Positions 19,309 to 34,695 of a stretch of DNA of 64,000 nucleotides are shown one piece after another (positions within the stretch are counted from its first letter, which is position 1; each line of letters begins with the position of its first letter). Under the pieces are notes generated by a model that saw only the letters and a program-made list of their open reading frames with translations, had not been told where the DNA came from and did not search any database. The translations under genes were made by a program, and so were the position numbers. Location of the stretch: contig NZ_DAHXOI010000007.1 of NCBI RefSeq assembly GCF_027364955.1, forward strand, positions 62,001-126,000, written 5' to 3'. This stretch comes from Ferrimicrobium sp. GTDB lineage: Bacteria > Actinomycetota > Acidimicrobiia > Acidimicrobiales > Acidimicrobiaceae.

Positions 19309-20235
19309 TCACGTGTGGATCATATGATGCAACAGGATTAACTGCGCCACCGCCAGGGGTGCCGATCGTTCGGTGGAACTGATCACACCGAGGCTCTCAG
19401 GGATCTCGCCGTCGAGCCCGATCTTCTCCCAAAGCTTCTCCTCGACGAGTCGGGTAGCTGACTCTGGGGCGTGACCATGGACATGGAGCGCGTCCACCGG
19501 TTTGCCGTCTTGATCACGGATGAGTTTGATGTGAGCCGCCTCTCGGGTAGCTGGTGTCAGGATGTCGTGGAGATCGGGATGTGGCACCGTCGGCCGTAGG
19601 AGGATCGTGGCACTGATCTCCTTTCGACCCTCGACTGGTGCAAACGAGATCACGATGTCCGCGTGTGCTCGTTGGGGCCGGATGAACTTCTCTGACTCGG
19701 GTTCGCGTTTGTCAAGGTCAGCGAGGACCTGTTCCTCGGTGTAACCACGTTTAGATACATCACGCTGAATCTTCCACTCGCGCCGTATCGGCTCCGGTGG
19801 ATCAAGATAGGCGGTGACGTCGAAGGTAGCCCTGGAGAGACGTGACCAGAGCGGAAATAGCCCCTCGACGATGACGATCTCGCGAGGCGTGAAGAGTTCG
19901 GGTCGACCGAGGGTACCGTCAGCGTGGTGATACTTGGGTTTGAGGATCGGTTGGCCGAGCGTCAGCAGCTGGAGGTGCTGTTCCATAATGTCGAGATAGT
20001 TACACTCTGGATTAAGGGGAGTAAAGGGCAGGCTTTTGCGCTCTATCCGATCATACCGATGGTAATCGTCGGTGCAGAACGAGGAGATACGGTGCTCGCC
20101 GATGGCCTGTACCAGCCCCTTGGTCAGCGTGGTTTTGCCAGAGGCCGAATCTCCTGCGATGGCGAGCAAGGCTACCCGCTCGGGATGGGGTTGGGTGGCG
20201 AGGAGTTTCTGGATGGCTGCGATTCGATGGGGCAT
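19309..20235 (-). CDS. prk: Phosphoribulokinase
   Basis: A 308-residue kinase that makes ribulose 1,5-bisphosphate from ribulose 5-phosphate and ATP, a step specific to the Calvin cycle. The P-loop is GDSASGKTT at 28-36. TDDYHRYDR, NYLDIMEQHL, KPKYHHADG and IVIVEGLFPLW follow in the order seen in class II (cyanobacterial/plant-type) PRK rather than the proteobacterial class I enzyme. It is the last gene of the minus-strand Calvin array, 54 bp behind the transketolase fusion, and has GAAGG ahead of its ATG. The assignment is firm given motifs and context. Confidence 0.9.
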   Translation of the reverse strand: MPHRIAAIQKLLATQPHPERVALLAIAGDSASGKTTLTKGLVQAIGEHRISSFCTDDYHRYDRIERKSLPFTPLNPECNYLDIMEQHLQLLTLGQPILKPKYHHADGTLGRPELFTPREIVIVEGLFPLWSRLSRATFDVTAYLDPPEPIRREWKIQRDVSKRGYTEEQVLADLDKREPESEKFIRPQRAHADIVISFAPVEGRKEISATILLRPTVPHPDLHDILTPATREAAHIKLIRDQDGKPVDALHVHGHAPESATRLVEEKLWEKIGLDGEIPESLGVISSTERSAPLAVAQLILLHHMIHT

Positions 20236-20289
20236 ATGCCCTTCCTTTCTTCGTTGACCTCTCGATGATCCTGGTGTCAGTGGCTGGGT

Positions 20290-23172
20290 CTAAGGAACGA
20301 GGCGGCGGACGATGCCGTAGCGTCCCTCCTGAATCCAGAGACTCTCGAGTTCAGTGAGGTCCCCAACCGCCGTGGGCGGGGCGAGCGGATGGGCTCCCGT
20401 TACCGAGGTAGCGACGACGATCGATCCCGCATGGGCGAGATCACTCGCCTCGAATTGCATGGTGTCATACTCTGGGTAGATAGCTTTGACGAGGGTCGCT
20501 TCGGCCTCGCTCTGGGGCGCAAATCGGCTCTGCATCTGCCCCGAGAGGGCGAGGGTCGCCGCAGCGGAGATGACTCCTTCGGGGGTGCCCCCAATACCCC
20601 ATAACATCACCGACCCTGGATCACCGCGCAACACCCGTAGACTGGCCATCACGTCACCATCGGGTATCTCGATGACGGGCACTCCGTGACTCCGCAGGTT
20701 AGCGATCATCGTCTCATGCCGCGGTTTAGCCAGGATGACGACGGTGGTTTCGCCGATGCCAAGTCCAAGGCGACTTGCCACACTCTTGACGTTTTCAAGC
20801 AGTGGGCGCGAGATATCGATGACCCCAGCAGCTCGTTCGCCGACGATGAGTTTTTCCAGGTAATAGCCGGGTAGTGGGGTAAATCCTCCTCCAGGAGCTG
20901 CGGCGATAACCGAGATCGCACCCTCTCGACCGGTGGCCGCAAAGTTGGTTCCCTCCAACGGGTCGATCGCGAGGTCGATGTCGATGGTGCCGGTGCCGAG
21001 CCGCTCTCCGACATAGAGCATGGGCGCGTCGTCCTTCTCGCCCTCACCGACGATCACGGTGGCAGAGACGGGGAGCCTTCCGAGCTCTTCGCGCATGGCA
21101 GAGACGGCAGCTGCGTCGGCACGATTCTTATCCCCAAGGCCGACCTCGTTGAGTGTCGCACAGGCGGCAGCCTCGGTCGCTCGAAGAAGATCCGAGACGA
21201 GATGTGAGGGATGCCCTAAGCGATAGGAGTCGACCACAAGATCGAGAGCGGCGTCGGCGACTTCGGTTGGGGTGAATCCGAAGTGTGCAGCCACCTCGGC
21301 CATCGGAGCCGAGGTGCCGAACGCTCTTACGTTGTAGAGCCGATCACCAGGACTCAAGAACTCATGCCATCCGGTACCAACGCTCGCTTCAAGTACGAGT
21401 CGGGGGGTACCGGTTGGTGCAAAGGCGTCCCGGTCGCGCGGATCGATCGCTAAGAACCGTTCGCGCCAGGGCACGGAGACGACTCGCGCGTCGACGTCGT
21501 CCTCGTCTTTGAGGATCTTGGCTGCCGTAATCGCAAGCGCTACCTCTGAGCCAGAGGCGACGAGGACGACCTCTGGGGAGGTTCGAGGATCACCATAGAC
21601 GATGCGAGCTCCGGTGTTGGCGAGCCAGTCGGTGTCCTCATTTGTTGGGATTTGGGGTAGCGGTTGTCGGGTGAGGGCAAGGATCGTTGGGCGAGTTCGC
21701 TCAGCGAGGGCGAGCTCCCAGCTCGCAAAGGTCTCAAAGGCATCCGCCGGGCGCAGCACTGTCGTATTGGGAATGATCCGAAGTGCCTCGAGTTGTTCGA
21801 TCGGCTGATGGGTTGGCCCATCCTCTCCCACCGCAAATGAGTCGTGGGAGAAGAGATAGATCACCCCGAGACCCATCAGTGCACAGAGGCGCAATGAAGG
21901 GCGGAGGTAGTCAGAGAAGACGAGAAAGGTGGAGACATAGGGGGTAAAACCGTAGAGGGCCAGACCGTTGGCGATTGCAGCCATCGCGTGCTCGCGGATT
22001 CCAAAGTGGATCGCTGAGCCCGAGAAGTCATCGGGGGTGATCGCCTGGAGGCCGACATTGAGCCCGGTTGACTCCCCAAGGTCCGCTGATCCACCGATCA
22101 ACCCAGGCGCCGCGTCTGGACCGTTTGCGATTGACTTCAGAAACAGCGCCGAAGCCGCCCTGGTGGCTAGGGGCGCCGTCGGCAGAGGAGGGTTCTGGTG
22201 GGATTGCACCTTGGCTTTGGCGATGCCCATCCAGTCGTTGTGCCGTTGACGCCAGACAGAGGCCTGAGCTTGCTTGTCGGCGACGATGCTTGCCACGTGT
22301 TGGCGCACATCCTCTGGAACCCAGAACGTTGGTTCGCTAGGCCAGCCGTAGGCGGCCTTGGTCGCCGCAAGCTCCTCGGCACCGAGCGGTGCACCATGGG
22401 CCTTTGAGGTGCCAGCTTTTGTTGGTGCACCCCTACCGATGATGGTTGGGGCGATGATCAGGCTTGGGCGCATTTGCTCAGCCATCGCCTGGCGATAGAT
22501 CTGTTCGATCTCATCGAGATCCTCAGGGTTGGTAATTGTGAGGACTTGCCAGCCGTAGCTCTCAAAGCGGGCGATTGGATCGTCAGTGCAGGACTGATGC
22601 CTCGGGCCATCGATGGTGATGTCATTGGAGTCATAACCCACAATGAGATGACCCAAGCCGAGCATGCCAGCGAGCGATGCGGCCTCATGGCTGAGGCCCT
22701 CCATTAGATCTCCATCAGAGGCGAGGACGAAGGTGTAGTGGTCGATGGGAGAGTCATCCATCCCGTGACGAAGCTTTGCTTCACCGATGGCCATGCCCAC
22801 CGCTGTCGCGAGTCCCTGTCCCAGCGGTCCGGTGGTGGTCTCCACGCCTGGAGTATGTCCATATTCGGGATGACCTGGGGTCTTTGACCCGATTTGGCGA
22901 AAGCGACGCAGCTCTTCGATGGACAAGTCGTACCCGAAGAGATGGAGCAGTGAATAGAGAAGCGCCGAGCCATGCCCGGCGGAGAGGATGAAACGATCCC
23001 GATTGGGCCAGCTGGGGTCTGCGGGGTCAAAGTTCATCAGTCGCGCAAAGAGCGTGTAGGCGACAGGTGCGAGACCCAGTGGTAGCCCTGGGTGGCCGGA
23101 GTTTGCCGCTTCTACTTGGTCGACAGAGAGCATGCGTACGGTTGTGACGCTGCGTTTATCGATTGAGTTCAT
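20290..23172 (-). CDS. Transketolase fused to class II (GlpX) fructose/sedoheptulose bisphosphatase
   Basis: A single 960-residue frame joins two Calvin enzymes. Residues about 1-640 are a full transketolase: NSGHPGLPLG near the N-terminus, the thiamine diphosphate motif region GDLMEGLSHEA...N, and the central pyrimidine domain with GIREHAM. From about 650 to 960 it is a GlpX-type bisphosphatase with GEGEKDDAPM, DIAIDPLEGT-like DLAIDPLEGT and GIGGTPEGV. No stop or start signal lies at the junction, and the linker is short. GlpX makes fructose 6-phosphate (possibly also sedoheptulose 7-phosphate), both used or made by transketolase, so substrate hand-over is plausible. AAAGGAG precedes the ATG. 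It sits between phosphoribulokinase and the two-component genes. Confidence 0.92.
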   Translation of the reverse strand: MNSIDKRSVTTVRMLSVDQVEAANSGHPGLPLGLAPVAYTLFARLMNFDPADPSWPNRDRFILSAGHGSALLYSLLHLFGYDLSIEELRRFRQIGSKTPGHPEYGHTPGVETTTGPLGQGLATAVGMAIGEAKLRHGMDDSPIDHYTFVLASDGDLMEGLSHEAASLAGMLGLGHLIVGYDSNDITIDGPRHQSCTDDPIARFESYGWQVLTITNPEDLDEIEQIYRQAMAEQMRPSLIIAPTIIGRGAPTKAGTSKAHGAPLGAEELAATKAAYGWPSEPTFWVPEDVRQHVASIVADKQAQASVWRQRHNDWMGIAKAKVQSHQNPPLPTAPLATRAASALFLKSIANGPDAAPGLIGGSADLGESTGLNVGLQAITPDDFSGSAIHFGIREHAMAAIANGLALYGFTPYVSTFLVFSDYLRPSLRLCALMGLGVIYLFSHDSFAVGEDGPTHQPIEQLEALRIIPNTTVLRPADAFETFASWELALAERTRPTILALTRQPLPQIPTNEDTDWLANTGARIVYGDPRTSPEVVLVASGSEVALAITAAKILKDEDDVDARVVSVPWRERFLAIDPRDRDAFAPTGTPRLVLEASVGTGWHEFLSPGDRLYNVRAFGTSAPMAEVAAHFGFTPTEVADAALDLVVDSYRLGHPSHLVSDLLRATEAAACATLNEVGLGDKNRADAAAVSAMREELGRLPVSATVIVGEGEKDDAPMLYVGERLGTGTIDIDLAIDPLEGTNFAATGREGAISVIAAAPGGGFTPLPGYYLEKLIVGERAAGVIDISRPLLENVKSVASRLGLGIGETTVVILAKPRHETMIANLRSHGVPVIEIPDGDVMASLRVLRGDPGSVMLWGIGGTPEGVISAAATLALSGQMQSRFAPQSEAEATLVKAIYPEYDTMQFEASDLAHAGSIVVATSVTGAHPLAPPTAVGDLTELESLWIQEGRYGIVRRLVP

Positions 23173-23916
23173 GATCTGACTCCTTTGATGGGGTTTGGGA
23201 GGTGGAGGTGCGTGGTGTCTGTCATCGTCGGACCGTATCGCTCCTCATCTGAGTTCTTTGTCGCCACGCGGCGCTGATCTAAACGGAATGCGCACTGGAG
23301 TGAGAGAACCGCCTGTTGAGAACCTGATTGCGGGTGGCTGGTCCTGGGGTCGGGCACACGAATGCTTCTGCCGCGTAGCTGGCGGCGAATCGCACGTGGT
23401 GCAAGGTCTGTCGAACGGAGTGTAAAAAATGGGGAACACCGTCTCATAGCCGACGAGCTCATAGCCGACGAGGAGGTGTGCTCTTTTGTCATGGCACGGG
23501 CATGATGTCCGGTGCGAGGACCCCTTTCGCCTGATCTAATGCCCGATGGGGAGATGTTGACGCTGCCACGGTGCTCGGTACGTCGTAGTGTTGGGAAAAT
23601 TGAGGAAGATCTCGAGCATCGGCGAGTGGACAAGTGATGAGGTATCATCTCGTTCTGCACCTCCCCTTGGTTGCTGAGCGTTCATGACAACCTAGTTGGT
23701 GCGTTGGTTGATCTTCTCCCCAACATGGGTGAGAACGAGGGTGAGGCCGCTCGCCAAAGGAACCCCACCGGTGGCGTTCTCCGCTAACCGTATCAGGCAA
23801 GTTCCTGCGTACACCTCCAGCTGCGCGCTGCCAGAGAACAACACTGCCTCAGATTGCTGGTGGTCCGGAGGTCGTACATGTCTTTTCTATTGAGCGTGTT
23901 GGCATTGGCCATAGTC
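23173..23916. other. Long promoter/leader interval upstream of the transketolase fusion
   Basis: 744 bp without a supported gene. It separates the histidine kinase gene from the transketolase fusion, which therefore probably has its own promoter here. It contains a 15-bp tandem duplication at 23443-23472. No CbbR-type palindrome like the one upstream of cbbR was seen. Confidence 0.4.
23443..23472. repeat. Two-copy 15-bp tandem duplication
   Basis: CTCATAGCCGACGAG occurs twice without a gap (23443-23457, 23458-23472), 270-300 bp upstream of the transketolase start. Confidence 0.9.
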
Positions 23917-25089
23917 CTACTGGACGGCACTGGCGGCGACGGGCACCAAGAGGCGCACCAGGGTTCCCTCACCAAGCGTAGAGAAGAGCTCGAGGCGTCC
24001 TCCGATGATCCGAGCCCGTTCTCGCATGCCACCGAGGCCAAAGCCTCCGACATGAGTCGTCGTGTCAAAGCCGTCCCCGCGATCCCGCACGACGACCACC
24101 AGGTCGCCGCCGATTGAGGCGAGCCGGAGCTCACAGGTGGTCACCCCTGAGTGTTTCCAGGCGTTGTTGATCGCCTCTTGCATGATGCGCAGTACGGCGA
24201 GCGCACGTTCGGGGGCAAGGGCAAGGGCGGTGTCGTCGGTTCGATCCTCGATCACGACAGCGAAGTCGGGATAGGAGTTGGCAAGCGTCTCGATCGCCTC
24301 GGCGAATCCAAATTCGTCGAGTGCCTGGCGTGGCGTGTCCTGGATCAGCCGACGCATCGCCTGGGTGCTCGCTTTGAGCAGATCAGAGGCGACACAGACA
24401 TCGCGTGCCTCGTGTTCGTCAAGGCCAGGTGAAGCCTTGACCGCTTCAAGCCGGTAGTAGGCGGCGTGAACCTGTTGGAGTACCCCGTCGTGGAGCTCGA
24501 GCTGGAGACGGCGACGTTCCGCCTCTTGGGCCTCGATGAGCTGCTGAGCGAAGCCCTCCAAGGCACGTTCGTGGGCTCCGAGCTTTGCCACGAGGAGAGT
24601 ATGTTCGAATGCGCCGGCGAGAAAACTGGCCACGGTGGTGAGTACCTGTTGTTGATGGAGAAGATCGACGTCCTCGTGTTGCCAGTGGACGTTCAGAACT
24701 CCGACGACATTCCCGCTTGCGTGGATCATCGGCACCGAGATCAGTATCCGGAAGAGCTCCCCCTGGAGCTCGGGGAGGTAGCGGTAGCGGTGATCGGCCC
24801 ACTTGTCGGGGACAACCGCGACTTGGCCAGTTTGGGCTACCCAACCGGCGATGCCATCTCCGAGTCCGAGCCATACTTGGTGGCGATACGAGTCAAAGGG
24901 TGGGGTGGCACCGACGAGTTCTAGGCGCATGAGTTCGGGGTCCACGAGGTGGACAAAGCAGACGCTTGCACCGACCGCATCGACCACCAGGGATGCCGTT
25001 TGGGCCGCTAGCTGATCGAGATCGAGGGTCTCCGCGAGCACCTGGGCGAGTTGACGGTAGAGAGTGAGTTCTTCGGGTTCAGTATTCAT
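23917..25089 (-). CDS. GAF-domain sensor histidine kinase (NarL/DegS type)
   Basis: A 390-residue cytoplasmic kinase without membrane helices. A GAF domain occupies about 20-175. A HisKA_3 dimerisation domain follows with the phospho-accepting histidine in RLQLELHDGVLQQ (about residue 195). The HATPase domain shows the N box IMQEAINNAWKHSG, VRDRGDGF and GFGLGGMRERA. The GAF domain suggests sensing of a small molecule or redox state. The response regulator gene is just upstream in the same operon, so the two are a cognate pair. I place the start at 25089; an ATG at 25152 would add 21 residues translated from a short tandem duplication. Confidence 0.88.
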   Translation of the reverse strand: MNTEPEELTLYRQLAQVLAETLDLDQLAAQTASLVVDAVGASVCFVHLVDPELMRLELVGATPPFDSYRHQVWLGLGDGIAGWVAQTGQVAVVPDKWADHRYRYLPELQGELFRILISVPMIHASGNVVGVLNVHWQHEDVDLLHQQQVLTTVASFLAGAFEHTLLVAKLGAHERALEGFAQQLIEAQEAERRRLQLELHDGVLQQVHAAYYRLEAVKASPGLDEHEARDVCVASDLLKASTQAMRRLIQDTPRQALDEFGFAEAIETLANSYPDFAVVIEDRTDDTALALAPERALAVLRIMQEAINNAWKHSGVTTCELRLASIGGDLVVVVRDRGDGFDTTTHVGGFGLGGMRERARIIGGRLELFSTLGEGTLVRLLVPVAASAVQ

Positions 25090-25099
25090 CGGTTTCACG

Positions 25100-25133
25100 A
25101 GATTCCCCGGTATCAGAAGATTCCCCGGTATCA
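25100..25133. repeat. 16-bp direct repeat, period 18
   Basis: AGATTCCCCGGTATCA occurs at 25100-25115 and 25118-25133, immediately upstream of the kinase start. It would encode a repeated IPGNL if the upstream start at 25152 were used. Confidence 0.9.
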
Positions 25134-25176
25134 CAAGTCTTGTTGGTAGCACAGAGCATCTGGGCTGTGTCAGGAT

Positions 25177-25833
25177 TCATCGGAACGTCACGTCCCGTAA
25201 GGCCACGGCAACTGCTTCGGCTCTTGACTTGACCTTCAATTTACGATAGATCGAGGAGAGGTGACTCTTGACCGTCTCCTCCCCGAGGAAGAGGCTCTGG
25301 GCGATGGACTTTGTTGACATGCCTTTTACGATGAGTTCGAGAATCTCACTCTCACGGTGGGTGAGTCCAAGATGGGCACCTGGCCAGAACTCGCCGAGTT
25401 GGAGGCGTGCTGCCAAGAGAGCGACGCGTCCCGCGATGGAAGGGTCGATGGTGACCTCACCGTCGACGACTCTTCGTAGAAGTCCAACCAGCTCAGCTCC
25501 CGTAGCCTGCTTGAGGAGATACCCTCGAGCCCCAGCGCGAAGAGCTCGAAAAAGATAGGCCTCGTCGTCGTAGGCGGTGTAGAAGACGACCGATACCTCG
25601 ATACCTTGAGTGGTGATCTGCTCAAGCAGCTCAAACCCTGAGCTCGTCTTCAGCCGCGCATCGGTGAGCACAATGTCGGGCAACGGGGAGGTGGTGAGTA
25701 GTTCGATCGCTTCATCGACCGTTTTGACGGCGGAGACGACCTCTACCTCGTCGATGTGGGTCCGCAGCATGGCACGAACTCCGTCGATGATTACCTCATG
25801 GTCATCGACCAGCATCAATTGAATGGCTCTCAT
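25177..25833 (-). CDS. NarL/LuxR-family response regulator
   Basis: A 218-residue response regulator. The receiver has the acidic pair D10-D11, the phospho-accepting aspartate D58 in DIVLTDARL, and a lysine in GYLLKQATG. The LuxR-type helix-turn-helix is at about 150-215 (LTHRESEILELIVKGMSTKS, then IAQSLFLGEETVKSHLSSIY). All key residues are present, so it should be phosphorylated by the GAF kinase encoded 24 bp downstream of its 87-bp-distant neighbour start. It lies within the cbbR-aldolase-kinase array, suggesting a role in carbon fixation control, though targets are unknown. Confidence 0.9.
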   Translation of the reverse strand: MRAIQLMLVDDHEVIIDGVRAMLRTHIDEVEVVSAVKTVDEAIELLTTSPLPDIVLTDARLKTSSGFELLEQITTQGIEVSVVFYTAYDDEAYLFRALRAGARGYLLKQATGAELVGLLRRVVDGEVTIDPSIAGRVALLAARLQLGEFWPGAHLGLTHRESEILELIVKGMSTKSIAQSLFLGEETVKSHLSSIYRKLKVKSRAEAVAVALRDVTFR

Positions 25834-26009
25834 GAGGGGTGTGCTCCTCCCGCGAGGCGTGCTCGTGGGTGCAACCCTGCCTGGTGCCGCTCGCTTATCA
25901 TCGTGCGCATCTGATCAACTTCGCGTTCGCTAGTGAGACGGCAGCCCTGGGCGGTGAGGTAGCCCTGATCGAACTCTTGCTGACGGGTGATTGCAGTTGT
26001 GATCGCCAT
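25830..26009 (-). CDS. Small hypothetical protein ahead of the response regulator
   Basis: A 59-residue frame starting at an ATG with GGGAG upstream and ending in an ATGA overlap with the response regulator start, typical of translational coupling. The protein is polar with EFDQGYLTAQGCRLTSERE and a basic tail, no membrane segment. I do not recognise it. The overlap and ribosome site suggest it is real, perhaps a small partner of the two-component pair or merely a coupling leader. Confidence 0.42.
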   Translation of the reverse strand: MAITTAITRQQEFDQGYLTAQGCRLTSEREVDQMRTMISERHQAGLHPRARLAGGAHPS

Positions 26010-26212
26010 GGCGTGCTCCCCACTCTGTGTGACGCTGGCCAAAGCTTACTCGTCAGCTTCGGACGTTCCACGCGGTAGCGGTCGGCCTCGGAGCAAGAGT
26101 GATGGGCCGTTTGCTTTGCAGCACCAGCGCGAGACGCTGATCAGGTTGCAGAACCAATGCAAGGCGTTGATCGGCACCCGACGCGACGTTGGTCGCGTTG
26201 CTGGGCTCAGCG

Positions 26213-27214
26213 TTAGACATTCACCAGGTGTCGGGGCCGCAGAACGGAGGCAGTGGCGGTGACGCGGTCCATCAGACTTGCCTGGGTGCGTTGCCGATCC
26301 CGCCCAGAACTCGCCCAGACCTTCATCGGTGTATCCTGAAGCGCGCGTCCGAAGGAGAAGGTGATCGGCCATGGCAGCGCCTCGATCTCGTTCATGGCGG
26401 CCAGATTTGCTGTTGCCATGTCATCGGACTGCCCACCGGATAGGAGCGCAATCCCGGCGACTGAGGCCGGCACGACGTCACGATAACATTCGACGGAGAC
26501 CTCCCCGATCTCTCTGGCAGTTGCCGTTGGCCCAGTGGTGCCTGGGGTGATCATCGAGGGTTTGAGCACCATGCCCGGGAGGAGTACCTCAAAGGAGCGG
26601 AGTTGGTCAAAGACGGCCGCGAGTACCGTTCCGGCGACCCGTCTGGTGGTTGCGAGGTCATGATCACCTTCCATGAGGATCTCAGGTTCGACGATTGGGA
26701 CGATGCCTGACTCCTGACAGAGTTTGGCGTAGCGAGCCAGGGCGTGGGCGTTGGCCTGGATGCAGATCGCGCTTGGCTTCGCCTGGTCGATTTGGAGTAC
26801 TGCGCGCCATTTGGCAAAGCGCGCCCCTCGCGTGTAGTAATCGACGAGACGAGGGCCGAGGTTGTCCAACCCTTCGGTCACCAGCTCCCCATCGCTTCCA
26901 GCCAGTGGCTTTGCTCCGGTATCGACCTTGATCCCTGGAAGCATGCCGTGCTGCACCAGGAAGTTGGGAAAGGAGAGACCGCTGGTGGTTGTCTGGTTGA
27001 ACGTCTCATCGTAGAGAATGACACCAGAGACATACTCTCCGAGTCCGGGAGAGCTAAAAAGGGTTTCACGCCAATCACGGCGAGTTGAATCGGTTGATTC
27101 GAGCCCGTGAGCGACGAAGCGTTTGGTGAGGGTGGGGCTACTCTCGTCGGCGGCGAGGATCCCCTTCGGGTGCGCCACCATGGCCCCAGCGTGTTCGATC
27201 AGTTCCTGTGACAT
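26213..27214 (-). CDS. Class I fructose-bisphosphate aldolase
   Basis: A 333-residue Schiff-base aldolase of the animal/plant-like class I family. It shows GILAADESSPTLTKRF near the N-terminus, YDETFNQ, GIKVDTGAKPL, IVPIVEPEIL, the Schiff-base lysine in MVLKPSMITPG and GIALLSGGQSDD. It joins glyceraldehyde 3-phosphate and dihydroxyacetone phosphate in the Calvin cycle and may also form sedoheptulose bisphosphate. It starts 24 bp after the cbbR stop, in the same operon. The class I enzyme is notable, since many bacterial cbb operons carry a class II CbbA. Confidence 0.92.
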   Translation of the reverse strand: MSQELIEHAGAMVAHPKGILAADESSPTLTKRFVAHGLESTDSTRRDWRETLFSSPGLGEYVSGVILYDETFNQTTTSGLSFPNFLVQHGMLPGIKVDTGAKPLAGSDGELVTEGLDNLGPRLVDYYTRGARFAKWRAVLQIDQAKPSAICIQANAHALARYAKLCQESGIVPIVEPEILMEGDHDLATTRRVAGTVLAAVFDQLRSFEVLLPGMVLKPSMITPGTTGPTATAREIGEVSVECYRDVVPASVAGIALLSGGQSDDMATANLAAMNEIEALPWPITFSFGRALQDTPMKVWASSGRDRQRTQASLMDRVTATASVLRPRHLVNV

Positions 27215-27238
27215 TGGTCCTCCCCACGTGTGTTGGCC

Positions 27239-28198
27239 TTAACCTAGGCGCTCTGTTCCTTTGGCGATCTCACCCAAACCGTGGGGCTCTAGGGTGAACT
27301 CCACCTCACCCAAGGACCCTAAGTAGTTGGCAAAGTGGTCGATGCTGCCCGCAAGCGTCTCCCCAGTGCGGACAGCAAGGCACCAGCTTCGGCGCTGAGG
27401 AAAGGGTTCCACGGTCAGGGAGACGAGCTCGCCGGCGGCTAACTCTTTGGACACCGACTCGGTAGAGATCACGGCAACGCCGAGACCGAGCTCCACGAGC
27501 CGCTTCATGGCAAGGTTCGAACCAACCGAGAGAGTCGCTGGGCTGATCGCGAGCTCGCCGAGGAGTTCTTCGGCTGAGGCGCGTGTCCCTGAACCAGGCT
27601 CTCGAACGAGCCAGGTGTGTTCCCCGACCTGTTGGGCGGTGGGGGAGAGTGAACCGTCGAACCACTCGGTGGCCCGCCGTTTGTTGGCGATCAAGGCGAG
27701 CTCGTGCCCTCGGGTTGCGATCACGTGGACGAATTCACTCTGGGTTGGTCTTCCCGAGATGACCAGGTCGACCCGATGGTCACCGAGTAGCTCGAAGAGA
27801 CTCGTCTTGTTGGCGACCTCGAGGTTGATGGTCGCGTGTGGCATCAACTCGAGGTAACCCTGGAGCCACCGCGGAAGGAGCTCCTCGCCAACGGTGGCGA
27901 CGGCTCCGATTCGTAGTGTGGGCGCATCGGGATGGCTGGCTTCTCGGCTGCGCACCAAGGCCTCTTCCATGGCGCCGAGAAGGGTTGCGGCATATCCGGC
28001 GAGGACTCTGCCTGCCGGGGTGAGGGCGAGTCCGCGCCCAACGCGCTGGGTCAGGTCTGTGCCGACCTCGCGCGATAGGGCTGCCAAGGTGGAGGAGACG
28101 GCGGCCGAACTGACAAAGAGCCGCCGACTCGCTCCAATGACGGATCCGGTGTCGGCCACTGCCAGCAGGGTTTTGAGTTGTGTGTTGGTCATCATCAT
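27239..28198 (-). CDS. cbbR: LysR-family regulator CbbR
   Basis: A 319-residue LysR-type regulator divergent from the RuBisCO genes, the standard position of CbbR. The N-terminal winged helix-turn-helix reads LKTLLAVADTGSVIGASRRL and continues through AVSSTLAALSREVG. The C-terminal co-inducer domain includes LRIGAVATVGEELLP and the VREPGSGTR motif. Three ATG codons stand in a row at the start; the true one may be the third. CbbR usually senses metabolites such as NADPH or ribulose bisphosphate and activates cbb transcription. The identification as CbbR comes from context plus family. Confidence 0.85.
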   Translation of the reverse strand: MMMTNTQLKTLLAVADTGSVIGASRRLFVSSAAVSSTLAALSREVGTDLTQRVGRGLALTPAGRVLAGYAATLLGAMEEALVRSREASHPDAPTLRIGAVATVGEELLPRWLQGYLELMPHATINLEVANKTSLFELLGDHRVDLVISGRPTQSEFVHVIATRGHELALIANKRRATEWFDGSLSPTAQQVGEHTWLVREPGSGTRASAEELLGELAISPATLSVGSNLAMKRLVELGLGVAVISTESVSKELAAGELVSLTVEPFPQRRSWCLAVRTGETLAGSIDHFANYLGSLGEVEFTLEPHGLGEIAKGTERLG

Positions 28199-28202
28199 GA
28201 TA

Positions 28203-28226
28203 ATAGTTAATGTTGAGATTAACTAT
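28203..28226. promoter_or_regulatory. Perfect inverted repeat, likely CbbR operator
   Basis: ATAGTTAAT (28203-28211) and ATTAACTAT (28218-28226) form a perfect 9-bp inverted repeat with a 6-bp spacer. It contains the T-N-A character of LysR sites. It lies directly before the cbbR start and about 90 bp upstream of cbbL, the expected place for autoregulation and cbbL activation. Confidence 0.72.
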
Positions 28227-28305
28227 CTGCGGTTTATTCCAAGGTATTGAATGAACTATCGTTTGGATGAGATCGCTACTGTAATCCCATGTCCACAGAT
28301 CGTGA

Positions 28306-29766
<1,461 letters not shown>

Positions 29767-29787
29767 CACCAGAAAGAGGAGACTCTC

Positions 29788-30204
29788 ATGCATCTCACCC
29801 AGGGCCAATTTTCATTTCTGCCACCACTGACCGACGAGCAGATCTCCGCCCAGATTCGTTGGGCTCTCGATCACGATTGGGCGATCGGCATCGAGTTCAC
29901 CGATGACCCACATCCGCGCAATACCTACTGGGATATGTGGGGCATGCCGATGTTTGACCTGCGCGATCCGGCGGCCATTCTCTATGAGATCAATGAGTGT
30001 CGTCGGGCGTATCCGAACCGCTATATTCGGGTGACTGCCTTTGATTCAACGAGAGGGTGGGAGGCGCCCCGGATGTCCTACCTGGTGAATCGGCCGGCGG
30101 AGGAGCCTGGATTTGGACTTGTTCGCCAGGAGAGCGAGGGTCGACACATCACCTACACCACGCACAGCTATGCCACGGAACAGCCACCCGGGGAACGCTA
30201 TTGA
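29788..30204 (+). CDS. cbbS: RuBisCO small subunit
   Basis: A 138-residue small subunit that caps the L8 core. It has the N-terminal [32 protein letters not shown], and [15 protein letters not shown]. It carries the extended C-terminal hairpin typical of red-type enzymes ([14 protein letters not shown]). AGAGGAG precedes the ATG, and 21 bp separate it from cbbL. Confidence 0.95.
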
Positions 30205-30249
30205 GCATCAACGGTTTTAACAGGTACGCAACGGAGCTGGCCGCTCATC

Positions 30250-31179
30250 ATGGCTGATCGAGAGGAAGCCGGAACCTTGTCCGATGGTGTAGATCTTGGA
30301 GCTCTGTTTCTCGAGACAAAGATCCAAGAGACGCTCGACGAACTCGACGCTGAGCTTGTCGGTCTACGACCGGTCAAGACCCGTATTCGTGAGATTGCTG
30401 CGCTGCTCCTTGTCGATCGTGCGCGAGCGCAGCTTGATCTCGCGGGGGGTAATCCCAGTCTGCACATGAGTTTCACCGGTAACCCAGGCACTGGAAAAAC
30501 AACGGTGGCGATGCGCATGGCTGAACTGCTTGCCAAACTTGGCTACGTTCGCCAAGGCCAGCTCGTGGCGGTCACCCGCGATGACCTGGTTGGCCAATAT
30601 ATTGGACACACTGCTCCAAAGACCAAGGAGGTCCTTAAACGAGCTATGGGGGGTGTGCTCTTCATCGATGAGGCGTACTATCTGTTTAAGCCCGAGAACG
30701 AGCGAGATTATGGCGCCGAGTCGATTGAGATACTCCTGCAGGTGATGGAGAACCAGCGTAACGATCTTGTGGTGATCTTGGCGGGGTACAAGGACCGCAT
30801 GGATACCTTCTTTAGCTCGAACCCTGGGATGTCGTCACGGATCGCGCACCATATCGATTTTCCTGATTACTCCCTCGATGAGCTGGTCGCGATTGGCAAG
30901 CTCATGCTTGCTGCTCAGCAGTATCGGCTCTCCGACGAAGCCGAAGGGGTCTTTCGGCGATATCTTGAACTCCGGATGGCCCAGCCCAACTTTGCCAACG
31001 CAAGAAGTGTGCGCAATGCCCTCGATCGGACTCGTCTGCGCCAGGCCAACCGGCTCTTTGAACGACGTAGCGCCCTGGTGACCCGCGTGGATCTCATGAC
31101 GATTGAGCCGCCCGATATCCTGGCAAGCCGTGTCTTTGACACGGACCCGGAAGAAGACAACCAGCTCAAGGGCGACTGA
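30250..31179 (+). CDS. cbbX: RuBisCO activase CbbX
   Basis: A 309-residue AAA+ ATPase that removes inhibitory sugar phosphates from red-type RuBisCO by pulling on the large-subunit C-terminus. Walker A is [11 protein letters not shown] (about residue 77), Walker [12 protein letters not shown] (about 135), and the pore-loop region YIGHTAPKT lies between. Sensor segments and the helical lid follow, including [13 protein letters not shown]-like [19 protein letters not shown]. It is 45 bp behind cbbS in one operon. Confidence 0.95.
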
Positions 31180-31336: not shown

Positions 31337-32287
31337 TTATGGGTTCGACGCGAGGGACCTACGGCGTCGATTGGCCTCGAGGACGCTGATACCTGCGATG
31401 CCTAGCCCTAGAAGGCCCCCACCGATCACCATCTCCCAATTGCTACTACGTGGTGATTGGGGTGGACCGGTGACGAGTCGTACTGGCGCTGGTGCCGAGT
31501 TGTGAGATGTAGAGACCGGCGCGGTGGCCCGGGGAGTGGTCGATGAGGCGCGAGAGACCGGGACGTGGCTAGTCGTCGGGGCATGGCTAACTACCGGGAG
31601 CGTTGTGGGGGGTATCACGCCGAGCGGCGTAGTGGAGGGTCGGCGAGTAGGTGCTGGTGCGCTCTGGCTGGCGACGATCCGATAACTGATCGTCGCCGAT
31701 TGGCCATTCCAAGCGTTGCCAAAACCCTCTCCGTTGGCTAACTCGACCGCAACGGGTATGGATACCCGCTGGTTTGGAGCGACGCTAGTCGCAATGGGCA
31801 GGGTGATACTTTTCAGTGATGACAAGGTGAGCGACGAGGACGGATCAAGACTGTTGGGCGCGGAGGGATCGAGATGGTAGGTGATCGTCCCCTTAGAGGT
31901 GGTCACCAAAAATTCGAGCTGGCCGAGGTCGCCGAAGCTGGCAAGCGTATCGGTGACGCCGGTGAACTGGAGATCAAAATCCTCTGATGTAGTGCCGGTG
32001 TTGGTCAGCGTGAAAGGAATCGTGTTGGTCGGTATGCCGGGAAGCAGGTTCGTCGCCTGCAGCGTCCCGTTGGTGAGACCGACACCGACGGACGCACGCA
32101 CAAACGCACTTGCCGGAGTCGCAAAGGCACCTTGGCCAGAGAGAGCAAAGGTCGCGACAGAGGCTGAGGCGCCAACGGCGATCACCGTCCAGCCCATCCT
32201 CGTGAACCGCGGCCATACCCTTCTCTGTCTATGCGTGTAATCCAACGGTACGCCCTTCGATGACGGATGCCATCGATCGACGAGCAT
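31337..32287 (-). CDS. Second camelysin-like surface protein with C-terminal anchor
   Basis: Up to 316 residues. A signal/membrane segment near GWTVIAVGASASVATFAL is followed by a beta-rich domain with IPFTLTNTGTTSEDFDLQF and FGNAWNGQSATISYRIVA. This matches the layout and the AWNG ending of the protein at 18088-18804. A Pro/Thr/Ser linker leads to RLVTGPP, a membrane segment (about 280-300) and NRRRRS, the same ending as the beta-helix protein at 6568-8943. The start is uncertain; the ATG at 32197 lies closer to the signal segment. It converges on cbbX. Likely an exported, membrane- or wall-attached protein processed by the SipW-type peptidase. Confidence 0.68.
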   Translation of the reverse strand: MLVDRWHPSSKGVPLDYTHRQRRVWPRFTRMGWTVIAVGASASVATFALSGQGAFATPASAFVRASVGVGLTNGTLQATNLLPGIPTNTIPFTLTNTGTTSEDFDLQFTGVTDTLASFGDLGQLEFLVTTSKGTITYHLDPSAPNSLDPSSSLTLSSLKSITLPIATSVAPNQRVSIPVAVELANGEGFGNAWNGQSATISYRIVASQSAPAPTRRPSTTPLGVIPPTTLPVVSHAPTTSHVPVSRASSTTPRATAPVSTSHNSAPAPVRLVTGPPQSPRSSNWEMVIGGGLLGLGIAGISVLEANRRRRSLASNP

Positions 32288-32886
32288 CCAACGTAAAGTC
32301 TACGAAGCCCAGTTCGGCATGCAAACCCATCCCATGGGTTCGGTTTGTTGATCGGAAACATTTAGCAGAATAGCTATTGCTGGCGGTCTTGATAGTCCGG
32401 TGCGAATGCTAGGCCCTGTCTCGTATTGGGAAGACAAGCAAAGTCAAGAGGAAGGGTTGCCACTGCCAGCCCGTCATCGGTCCTGGTGAGGAAAGCGCCA
32501 CCGGCCCGGTCGAGAACTGACATCCATGATGGGTTGTGAGAACGATGGAGGGCCAACCCGGGTTATCTTCGCATACGTGTTAGGTGTGGGAGGTTCGGAA
32601 TCACAAGCGCAGATTATGCGGTCGCGTATCTTGGCGCGCACTCGTGAGGAGCATGGTGGATATCCCAACCGCTGCAATGGTGGCATTGTCGCTCAGAATG
32701 GAGGCTGCCTTAGGCGTTGCCAAGTGATCGAAGAGTTGCGCCAGATTGGCTGGTGAAGGCAAAAGTTGTTGCGAGGTGGGGGAGGTTCTTGGGGAAGCTG
32801 TGTTGAACGAGCGGGTTGCAAGCATGCGAGACGTGGTGCTGAGCTAGGTTGGATGCGTGTGCTCTGTTTCGCGAAGTAGGTAACTG
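32288..32886. other. Non-coding interval
   Basis: Divergent promoter space between the camelysin-like gene and the lipoprotein gene. No frame in its 600 bp is recognisable. Confidence 0.35.
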
Positions 32887-34695
32887 ATGGGCCGTCAAGC
32901 TCCACTATGGCTGATGCGACGAGCAATAACGTTTATCGCGACCACGATGCTCTTGGCGGGTTGTGGGTCTGTCAATTCTCATACTGCCGGAGCGACCCGA
33001 AGCAAGGCGGCCGGGACCAATGCGACCTTTCCTCTAGAGATATTGCAGAGCTCGATCACCCCGTCGGGGTCGGTGTATCTCTCCTCTGCGTCGAGTGAGG
33101 GAGGTAACCCGGTCCTCTTAAGGTACCAACGGGGCAAGTTTTCTCAACTCGCGCGCCTTCCGGGATCAGTCGATCTCATCGATTTTCTCAATCGGCGTGA
33201 CGGCTTGGTGGCCTCCGAGTCAACCGGTAGTGTGTACGCTGCGGTCGACGGTGGAGACCACTTTCGGCTCCTCCATAACTTCTCGCGCCAGGGTAGCATC
33301 GTGGGGTTGGGTTTGGTGACCTCCACCCATGGTTATGTGGTGCTCGGCACACCGACAGCAACCGTTGTCGATCAGACGATAGACGGTGGACATAGCTGGC
33401 ATACGATCGGGACGCTCCCCATCTCTTACCCGGACCGGGCTCTCTTTGACTTCGCTGGCGGTGACTCCTATCTCATGGTAGAGAGTGGCGGGGGAGGAGC
33501 GCCAGCCTACTTTGTCCAGAAGGAAGGAACATCCACCTTCCAGAGGGAGGATCGAGGCTTGGCTGCTCCTCAGTCGCCCGCTGGCAGTCTTCAGCCCAGT
33601 AGCCTTCAAGTCGTTGGCCAGAGTACGGTCGTTGGGTTCCAGTCAAACTCGGGAGCCAATTTTGGCCCGACGCCGCCGCTTCTCGCCACCAAACCCACGC
33701 CAAACTTTGTCGAACGACAGCCGGCTTGGTTCGGAACTCATCGGGTCGAGTTCAATAACTTTCGGAGACTCTCAGATGGTACGGTCATCGCAGTTTCTGG
33801 GCGGGGGATCTACCAATACAGCAATAAGAGTGGGTGGAGACGCTCCTATCCCGCGCTCATGGCAAGCGCGATCTTCAATGCCCAGGGTCGCCTTGGTACG
33901 GTCGGTGTGAACCAGCAGGGTCAACACGTGGTGATGGTTGGTGCGACGAAGTGGAGTTCTCCAACCCTTCAGACGTTACTGGGGTCCCCGGATGCTCAAG
34001 TGATCGGAATGACGACGAAACGCTCCCTTCTCATTACCTTGCAAAAGCCCGACGGCTCTCTGCGACTCTTTGCCCTCGACCGAGCAGGTGATGAACGAAG
34101 CGTCCCGTTTCCCCTGACTATCGCTAGGACGGTCTCCTCGGTTGTGGCGGCTGGCAGCGGACTCGCCATGGAGGCGAGTTCCAACGCTGGTCTTGGTCCC
34201 GTGTATCTCTCGTCGATCGCCGCCAGTGCGCGTGGGATTGACTTGCACCTAGACTCCACGATTCCGCTGGCCATGTACCCACTTTCCGCGCAGAGCCTTT
34301 GGATTGGCGCAGCGCAGCGGGTGGGGTTCGGCACAGGGGCTGGCTCGCCAGGTAGGAGTGATTATCTTGCCTATAGCGGTAACGGCGGGCGGAGCTGGAC
34401 AAATATCAGTGTTGGTGCGAACGATGTCGATGCGATCGATTACGCCTCACCTAGGATCGTTTGGGCGACGCTCAGTCCCTATGCCACGCCTTCGTTTTCG
34501 TTTCTTGTTCGGGTGAGCCGTGCGACGGGTTCGGTGGTGCGCGTACCGATCCCATCCTTCTTCCACCGGGGCTTTGTTGCGGTTTTTGTCTCCTCGACGA
34601 CTGGTTGGCTTCAAGCGACTAGCTGCGACTCCGGCTGTAGTGCATTCGTTGGGACCACCGATGGAGGTGGTCACTGGGGCCTTGTCTCCCCCTGA
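32887..34695 (+). CDS. Lipoprotein with BNR/beta-propeller repeats
   Basis: A 602-residue exported lipoprotein. The signal peptide ends in the lipobox LLAGC (Cys about residue 26). The rest is beta-rich with several BNR-like Asp-box repeats, such as TIDGGHSWHTIG, SGNGGRSWTNIS and TTDGGGHWGLVS, which point to a beta-propeller of the sialidase/photosystem-assembly-like superfamily. No sialidase catalytic set is evident. It may bind a ligand or protein at the cell surface. Neighbours give no clue. The start could also be at a downstream ATG (residue 10). Confidence 0.75.
   Translation: MGRQAPLWLMRRAITFIATTMLLAGCGSVNSHTAGATRSKAAGTNATFPLEILQSSITPSGSVYLSSASSEGGNPVLLRYQRGKFSQLARLPGSVDLIDFLNRRDGLVASESTGSVYAAVDGGDHFRLLHNFSRQGSIVGLGLVTSTHGYVVLGTPTATVVDQTIDGGHSWHTIGTLPISYPDRALFDFAGGDSYLMVESGGGGAPAYFVQKEGTSTFQREDRGLAAPQSPAGSLQPSSLQVVGQSTVVGFQSNSGANFGPTPPLLATKPTPNFVERQPAWFGTHRVEFNNFRRLSDGTVIAVSGRGIYQYSNKSGWRRSYPALMASAIFNAQGRLGTVGVNQQGQHVVMVGATKWSSPTLQTLLGSPDAQVIGMTTKRSLLITLQKPDGSLRLFALDRAGDERSVPFPLTIARTVSSVVAAGSGLAMEASSNAGLGPVYLSSIAASARGIDLHLDSTIPLAMYPLSAQSLWIGAAQRVGFGTGAGSPGRSDYLAYSGNGGRSWTNISVGANDVDAIDYASPRIVWATLSPYATPSFSFLVRVSRATGSVVRVPIPSFFHRGFVAVFVSSTTGWLQATSCDSGCSAFVGTTDGGGHWGLVSP

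Follow-up and report, generated by a model that had tools for sequence, protein, structure and literature searches.

The fused gene and its domains

We analysed a 64,000-nucleotide stretch of Ferrimicrobium sp. DNA (contig NZ_DAHXOI010000007.1, positions 62,001 to 126,000; hereafter the window), in which a sequence-only reading had noticed a transketolase and a GlpX-type bisphosphatase joined in one polypeptide within a Calvin-cycle (cbb) gene cluster. The gene and its parts are as follows, residues being those of the encoded protein.

20290..23172, minus strand: fused tkt-glpX gene, 960 amino acids (open reading frame (ORF) listing, ATG at 23172; kept in relatives)
23180..23186, minus strand: Shine–Dalgarno-like AAAGGAG, 7 nt 5' of the ATG (read from the sequence)
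22228..23163, minus strand: Transketolase_N, binding thiamine diphosphate (ThDP), residues 4-315 (Pfam PF00456, 2.8e-124)
21655..22170, minus strand: Transket_pyr, residues 335-506 (Pfam PF02779, 1.1e-47)
21271..21582, minus strand: Transketolase_C_1, residues 531-634 (Pfam PF22613, 1e-21)
21202..21234, minus strand: junction or linker of about 10 residues, approximately residues 647-657 (alignment)
20302..21201, minus strand: FBPase_glpX, class II fructose-1,6-bisphosphatase (FBPase), residues 658-957 (Pfam PF03320, 2.4e-89; GlpX matches in the PDB)

The uninterrupted 960-codon frame with both complete domains, as first noticed, was borne out by the ORF listing, the translation and Pfam, to which we add the strand: the minus-strand translation of 20290..23172 contains no internal stop, and frame 1 of the plus strand over the same interval is broken by stops. 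All four Pfam matches exceeded their gathering cut-offs, PF03320 scoring 299.7 bits against a cut-off of 27 and covering profile positions 3-302 of 307; such domain scores rule out a chance ORF. The protein also passes the NCBIfam transketolase equivalog TIGR00232 (688.2 against 682.25 bits), and in a PDB search its phosphatase half matched solved chains of GlpX and of the bifunctional bisphosphatase acting on fructose and sedoheptulose bisphosphates (FBP/SBPase). An AlphaFold2 model built from a 23-row alignment had a mean predicted local distance difference test score (pLDDT) of 82.7 and a predicted template modelling score (pTM) of 0.69. Because of this pTM, and because the junction residues 648-650 form one of five segments with pLDDT below 50, the model supports no fixed arrangement of the domains. 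All 50 of the PDB fold matches listed for the model were transketolases, so that the model alone does not demonstrate a phosphatase fold.

Distribution and ancestry of the fusion

Our survey of the window's GTDB family covered 42 genomes (labels G, L and g denote genomes, loci and genera). In 28 of them a fused frame runs across the junction: 25 tabulated genomes plus G397, G398 and G412, for which only fragments spanning the junction were found. In G261, G297, G399, G401 and G411, counted as fused, the contig ends inside the phosphatase half, and the frame of G261 also contains a TAG among its final codons there. The fused genomes include a complete chromosome in one contig of 2,158,157 bp (G032). 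Three genomes (G346, G402 and G403) have two adjacent genes instead of the fusion, the fragmented assembly of G414 makes its architecture uncallable, and in ten (nine of g6, one of g204) neither a fused nor a paired gene was seen; one of these ten, G416, gave zero transketolase matches. RuBisCO, the carboxylase of the Calvin cycle, was matched in 23 of the 28 fused genomes, in all three split ones and in G414, and in 0 of the 10 genomes with neither form. A sister transketolase lacking the phosphatase half is kept in g6 and g204 genomes with no RuBisCO match (L100-L102, L128 and L132). Besides its strong match, G414 has a second, weak one to the RuBisCO large subunit (G414:C50:13826-14521, 1.2e-24), perhaps a RuBisCO-like protein.

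Outside the family, we searched even samples of the order (397 genomes) and the phylum (396 genomes) and 36 genomes of the order of G689, a distant actinobacterium (E up to 1e-150); among the matches listed, none passes query residue 660 without a stop. A further scan took one genome per species from 84,980 species, and among the best 80 of at least 593 candidate loci only L006-L008 were fused, all from metagenome-assembled genomes of Acidimicrobiaceae/Actinomycetes, L006 probably being G410 again. Compared with the loci gathered, the phosphatase half matched only those of the family and of G689. Six plasmid records match over at least 80% of the query. Five carry tkt and glpX as separate genes; in the sixth, NZ_LR134433.1 of Legionella adelaidensis, one tblastn piece covers 80% of the query across genes annotated as tkt and gap, perhaps as a spurious extension. 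Within the samples searched, the fusion is confined to the window's own family, in agreement with the earlier impression that the architecture is unusual.

G689 carries an unfused operon, rpe-tkt-glpX-prk, with the same two-component genes alongside as in the window; in it, the stop codon of tkt overlaps the start codon of glpX (ATGA). This type of operon is the likely precursor state. In Mycobacterium intermedium, SZAS8 and SSEL we found rpe-tkt, with glpX not detectable within the stretch available.

The history of the two forms was traced on a careful tree of the transketolase and GlpX columns (35 rows, without G412) and on quick trees of each half, the quick transketolase tree holding 35 family rows and 22 others; the careful and quick transketolase trees leave out G397, G398, G414 and five of the nine g6 genomes, and long branches were flagged in all three trees (G413, G689 and G199 in the careful one). 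In the careful tree, the fused and split rows form one clade (support 100/98), and the split trio is nested in genus g4, where G117 joins it first (100/99) and G261 next (97/99). A topology with a single clade of the fused rows, a grouping defined by architecture, was rejected by the approximately unbiased (AU) test on this tree with p-AU 5.6e-9, a value that assumes a group named beforehand and was obtained after the quick tree had shown the nesting. The nesting and the AU test rule out the split genes as the ancestral state. In the quick GlpX tree, which carries a long-branch warning, the split rows fall within the g4 group at no resolved place, and the fused GlpX joins that of G689 in a clade apart from ten stand-alone GlpX proteins of the family, which rules out a recent fusion from the housekeeping glpX. 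The stop codons of the three split transketolase genes are TAG, TAA and TGA, followed 4-9 bases later by possible starts (GTG or ATG), a pattern that speaks against a shared sequencing error. Mapped on the tree, the architecture thus gives a single fused clade with one nested fission, and its history is most simply read as one fusion followed by one later fission.

Active sites, selection and the cbb cluster

Residues were compared in an alignment of 36 rows comprising the fused, split and transketolase-only proteins and G689. The 17 listed transketolase positions show a single letter in all 36 rows, and the phosphatase positions E710, D714, D737, E740, T742, Y771 and K774 do so in all 30 rows that cover them; in the 23-row alignment A1, D686 does not vary. 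Elsewhere, position 681 is Asn or Glu in five rows and position 838 is Glu in G402. The window protein carries every listed ThDP, metal and substrate residue of the transketolase, with roles that we take to be those of known transketolases, and every listed metal and catalytic residue of the phosphatase, whose roles are presumably those in Escherichia coli GlpX.

In six within-genus comparisons, dN/dS was 0.07-0.12 for the transketolase and 0.03-0.06 for the GlpX core, values that are rough because synonymous sites are near saturation in several pairs (proportion of synonymous differences up to 0.73). The GlpX half has the lower dN/dS of the two in 9/9 pairwise comparisons (the six and a further three, one pair being in both). 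Purifying selection acts on both halves, with dN/dS of approximately 0.03-0.13. From these residues and profile matches, the fused protein is predicted to have both transketolase and bisphosphatase activity. The products of FBPase and sedoheptulose-1,7-bisphosphatase (SBPase), fructose 6-phosphate (F6P) and sedoheptulose 7-phosphate (S7P), feed transketolase directly, and class I FBPase (PF00316) had zero matches in the window's own genome. Sedoheptulose 1,7-bisphosphate (SBP) would be a further substrate, judging from the pathway context and by analogy with Bacillus methanolicus, whose glpX is said in PMC9214030 to encode both SBPase and FBPase.

Around the fused gene lie the following.

19309..20235, minus strand: phosphoribulokinase (prk), 54 nt downstream of the fused gene (NCBIfam NF005655, over cut-off)
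23917..25152, minus strand: GAF-domain histidine kinase, a conserved neighbour (Pfam; synteny)
25177..25833, minus strand: LuxR/NarL-type response regulator, a conserved neighbour (Pfam; synteny)
26213..27214, minus strand: class I fructose-bisphosphate aldolase, fba (NF033379, over cut-off)
27239..28198, minus strand: LysR regulator, CbbR-like by position (Pfam; the NCBIfam rows listed are all below cut-off)
28318..29766, plus strand: RuBisCO large subunit, rbcL (PF00016/PF02788)
29788..30204, plus strand: RuBisCO small-subunit ORF (position and recurrence beside rbcL in synteny)
30250..31179, plus strand: AAA ATPase, CbbX-like by position (PF00004, PF17866)

Upstream of the fused gene thus stand the kinase, the response regulator, fba and the LysR gene, followed by the divergent rbcLS and CbbX-like genes. 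A synteny comparison found the order of rbcLS, cbbX, cbbR, fba, the two-component pair and rpe-tkt-glpX-prk recurring among relatives; the epimerase gene rpe, which precedes the fused gene in other genera, is located elsewhere in the three g1 genomes searched (G000, G280 and G148). The kinase gene, the LuxR-type regulator gene or both also recur beside rpe-tkt(-glpX)-prk in L009, L010, L012, L013 and L183, and this recurrence in distant relatives suggests that the genes at 23917-25833 form a conserved cbb-linked two-component system.

A 163-amino-acid ORF at 23169-23660 was considered as a leader gene and rejected, as it had no Pfam or NCBIfam match and, among the loci compared, a partial match (56%) in one congener only. 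Past the CbbX-like gene, ORFs of 316 and 602 amino acids (31340-34692) had zero Pfam matches. The promoter scan yielded roughly the number of sites found in shuffled sequences (3 against 4.1), and so did the terminator scan (9 against 8.3). The window has a GC content of 58.2%, compared with 55.3% for T23T (Ferrimicrobium acidiphilum) and 58.16% for YE2023, and its host is probably acid-loving.

Interpretation and significance

We consider it probable that the fused gene encodes a bifunctional transketolase/F(S)BPase which arose by a single fusion, later reversed by fission, and which benefits its hosts mainly by locking the synthesis and location of the two enzymes together. One enzyme of about 100 kDa would then act in the regenerative part of the Calvin cycle, with a ThDP-dependent transketolase at its N terminus and a metal-dependent class II (GlpX) bisphosphatase at its C terminus. 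The GlpX half would hydrolyse fructose 1,6-bisphosphate (FBP) and probably SBP, and its product, F6P or S7P, would be the next transketolase substrate, the irreversible step and the reversible one that it drives being made in the same molecule. The fixed 1:1 ratio that the sequence-only reading proposed follows from the single frame. As to origin, an rpe-tkt-glpX-prk operon in which tkt and glpX overlapped would have lost the intervening stop once, in the ancestor of the clade, and one subclade would have re-split the gene afterwards. The selective advantage that we infer is of a useful, not an indispensable, kind: the fission took place in a lineage bearing RuBisCO, so the covalent linkage is not strictly required. 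The same fission makes channelling of intermediates less likely, though still possible as an additional benefit.

Several observations weigh against this explanation. Both enzymes are also encoded separately in the window's own genome, as a transketolase with 46% identity that neighbours a transaldolase and as a GlpX with 42% identity, so the fusion is not the sole source of either activity. The GlpX half narrowly fails the glpX equivalog TIGR00330 (251.4 against 259.3 bits) and is therefore filed as PF03320 only, and position 712, in an acidic motif, is Ala in G082, G406 and G408 (three of the four g3 rows) and Val in G199, relatives in which the phosphatase activity may be altered. Five fused genomes, with completeness of 65-96%, gave no RuBisCO match (G405, G398, G406, G407 and G408). 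Outside the family, the precursor operon comes from one genome only, G689, whose branch is long (0.96 changes per column), and the AU test has the post hoc character described above. Lastly, Ferrimicrobium acidiphilum T23T has type I RubisCO and 11 enzymes of the cycle, yet CO2 fixation went undetected in it (PMC4417700).

Two side observations belong here. The g3 genomes G407 (L142), G406 and G408 contain rpe as well as the fused gene, and two of the three also match phosphoribulokinase; RuBisCO was matched in none of them, which may reflect missing contigs or a real loss. The window contains the cbb cluster (19309-31179), with purifying selection on its fused gene, despite the description of the genus as heterotrophic (PMC4417700).

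Among the alternatives, the one that fares best, though we find it doubtful, holds that F6P and S7P are channelled from the phosphatase to the transketolase active site and that the physical linkage itself was selected. Both phosphatase products are transketolase substrates in the known pathway, the linker is short and in g3 nearly absent, and the fusion has been retained through most of a deep clade. The linker nevertheless differs in length and sequence among genera, the three genomes with the secondary fission all retain RuBisCO, rpe and prk, and the AlphaFold2 model, with the pTM and junction confidence given above, supports no fixed arrangement of the domains.

Somewhat less probable than channelling as such is a trifunctional transketolase/FBPase/SBPase module that passes F6P and S7P straight to transketolase within the assembled oligomer and is useful enough to have outlasted the rest of the Calvin cluster at the site. 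Lone fused genes do exist: in G280 (contig C8, L204:1404-4298) and G405 (L202:2343-5237), a site syntenic with the window matches it on the ApbE side up to approximately 15.2 kb and on the aldo/keto reductase side from approximately 40.6 kb, and the fused gene alone matches between these flanks (window 20290-23187, counting blastn pieces longer than 250 bases). Both halves of these lone copies are constrained (dN/dS 0.12 and 0.06), and such constraint at a syntenic site means either a wider role in pentose and hexose metabolism or a recent remnant. G280 has a second cluster on contig C5, with its own fused copy and prk, the two-component pair, fba, cbbR, rbcLS and cbbX. G405 has no RuBisCO match and a phosphoribulokinase fragment on another contig; this fragment (G405:C127:2511-3104) is 100% identical to the window's phosphoribulokinase, the fused proteins being 83% identical, and it is possibly an assembly contamination or a recent transfer. 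The fusion is linked to RuBisCO and prk in the window, where the sequence-only reading placed it inside a cbb cluster, and in relatives, and the lone copies show that it is not bound to such a cluster alone.

It is unlikely that one half is catalytically weak and chiefly scaffolds or regulates the other. The score just below the TIGR00330 cut-off, the four rows altered at position 712 and the stand-alone copies of both enzymes would fit such a role, which is opposed by the intact catalytic and metal-site positions of the window protein and by the lower dN/dS of the GlpX half in every comparison. We give slightly less credence still to a fused frame whose products in the cell are separate proteins, through internal initiation or through proteolytic cleavage at the linker. 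The presumed precursor and the split relatives do have separate adjacent genes, and 15 of the 16 fused sequences scanned have start-type codons close to the junction, an ATG at residue 624 recurring in six; a Shine–Dalgarno-like match (of 4 bases) precedes such a codon in G174 only, and the recurring ATG, which falls within the C-terminal domain of the transketolase, lacks one. The scan found no Shine–Dalgarno-like motif before the internal start codons near the junction in the window, and in fused members no stop codon closes the transketolase half. An assembly or sequencing artefact, or a chance frame, has nothing in its favour and practically no likelihood, being ruled out by the same architecture in many assemblies, the one-contig chromosome included.

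The bifunctional enzyme that we favour can be set beside known systems. With stand-alone transketolases (TIGR00232) it shares the full-length domain set, and a structure search gave 47% identity to that of Geobacillus stearothermophilus (8cip); it differs in the second enzyme joined in frame at the C terminus. Like the class II FBPases (GlpX of E. coli and Mycobacterium tuberculosis, cyanobacterial FBP/SBPase), it has the whole PF03320 domain with conserved motifs, but as the C-terminal part of a fusion and in a clade separate from the stand-alone GlpX proteins of the family. The B. methanolicus plasmid genes tkt-glpX-fba include the same two enzymes as neighbours in a cyclic pathway of one-carbon assimilation, whereas they are separate, belong to another phylum and serve the ribulose monophosphate cycle instead of the Calvin cycle. 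The operon of G689 agrees in gene order and neighbouring two-component genes and differs in being unfused.

The fusion is not mentioned in the titles and abstract beginnings of the open-licence literature searched, nor in the F. acidiphilum T23T paper (PMC4417700) or PMC4714123. A term search of the Acidimicrobium ferrooxidans genome paper (PMC3035218) gave no match for transketolase, bisphosphatase, fused, RuBisCO or ribulose, and a term search of PMC11636282 gave no match either. Should G032 be the type strain of A. ferrooxidans, the sequence of its fused protein has been publicly available since 2009. Both enzymes and their proximity in operons are already known, and the fusion itself was not found in print. 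Engineered CO2 or methanol assimilation could draw on it as a ready-made component; in such systems tkt and glpX have been expressed together from separate genes, according to PMC9214030. Two Calvin-cycle enzymes of consecutive steps have been fused, and the unfused, fused and re-split forms are all extant; G689, the fused genomes and the re-split G346, G402 and G403 make a natural matched set for asking whether selection in the regenerative phase favours fusion, co-expression or channelling.

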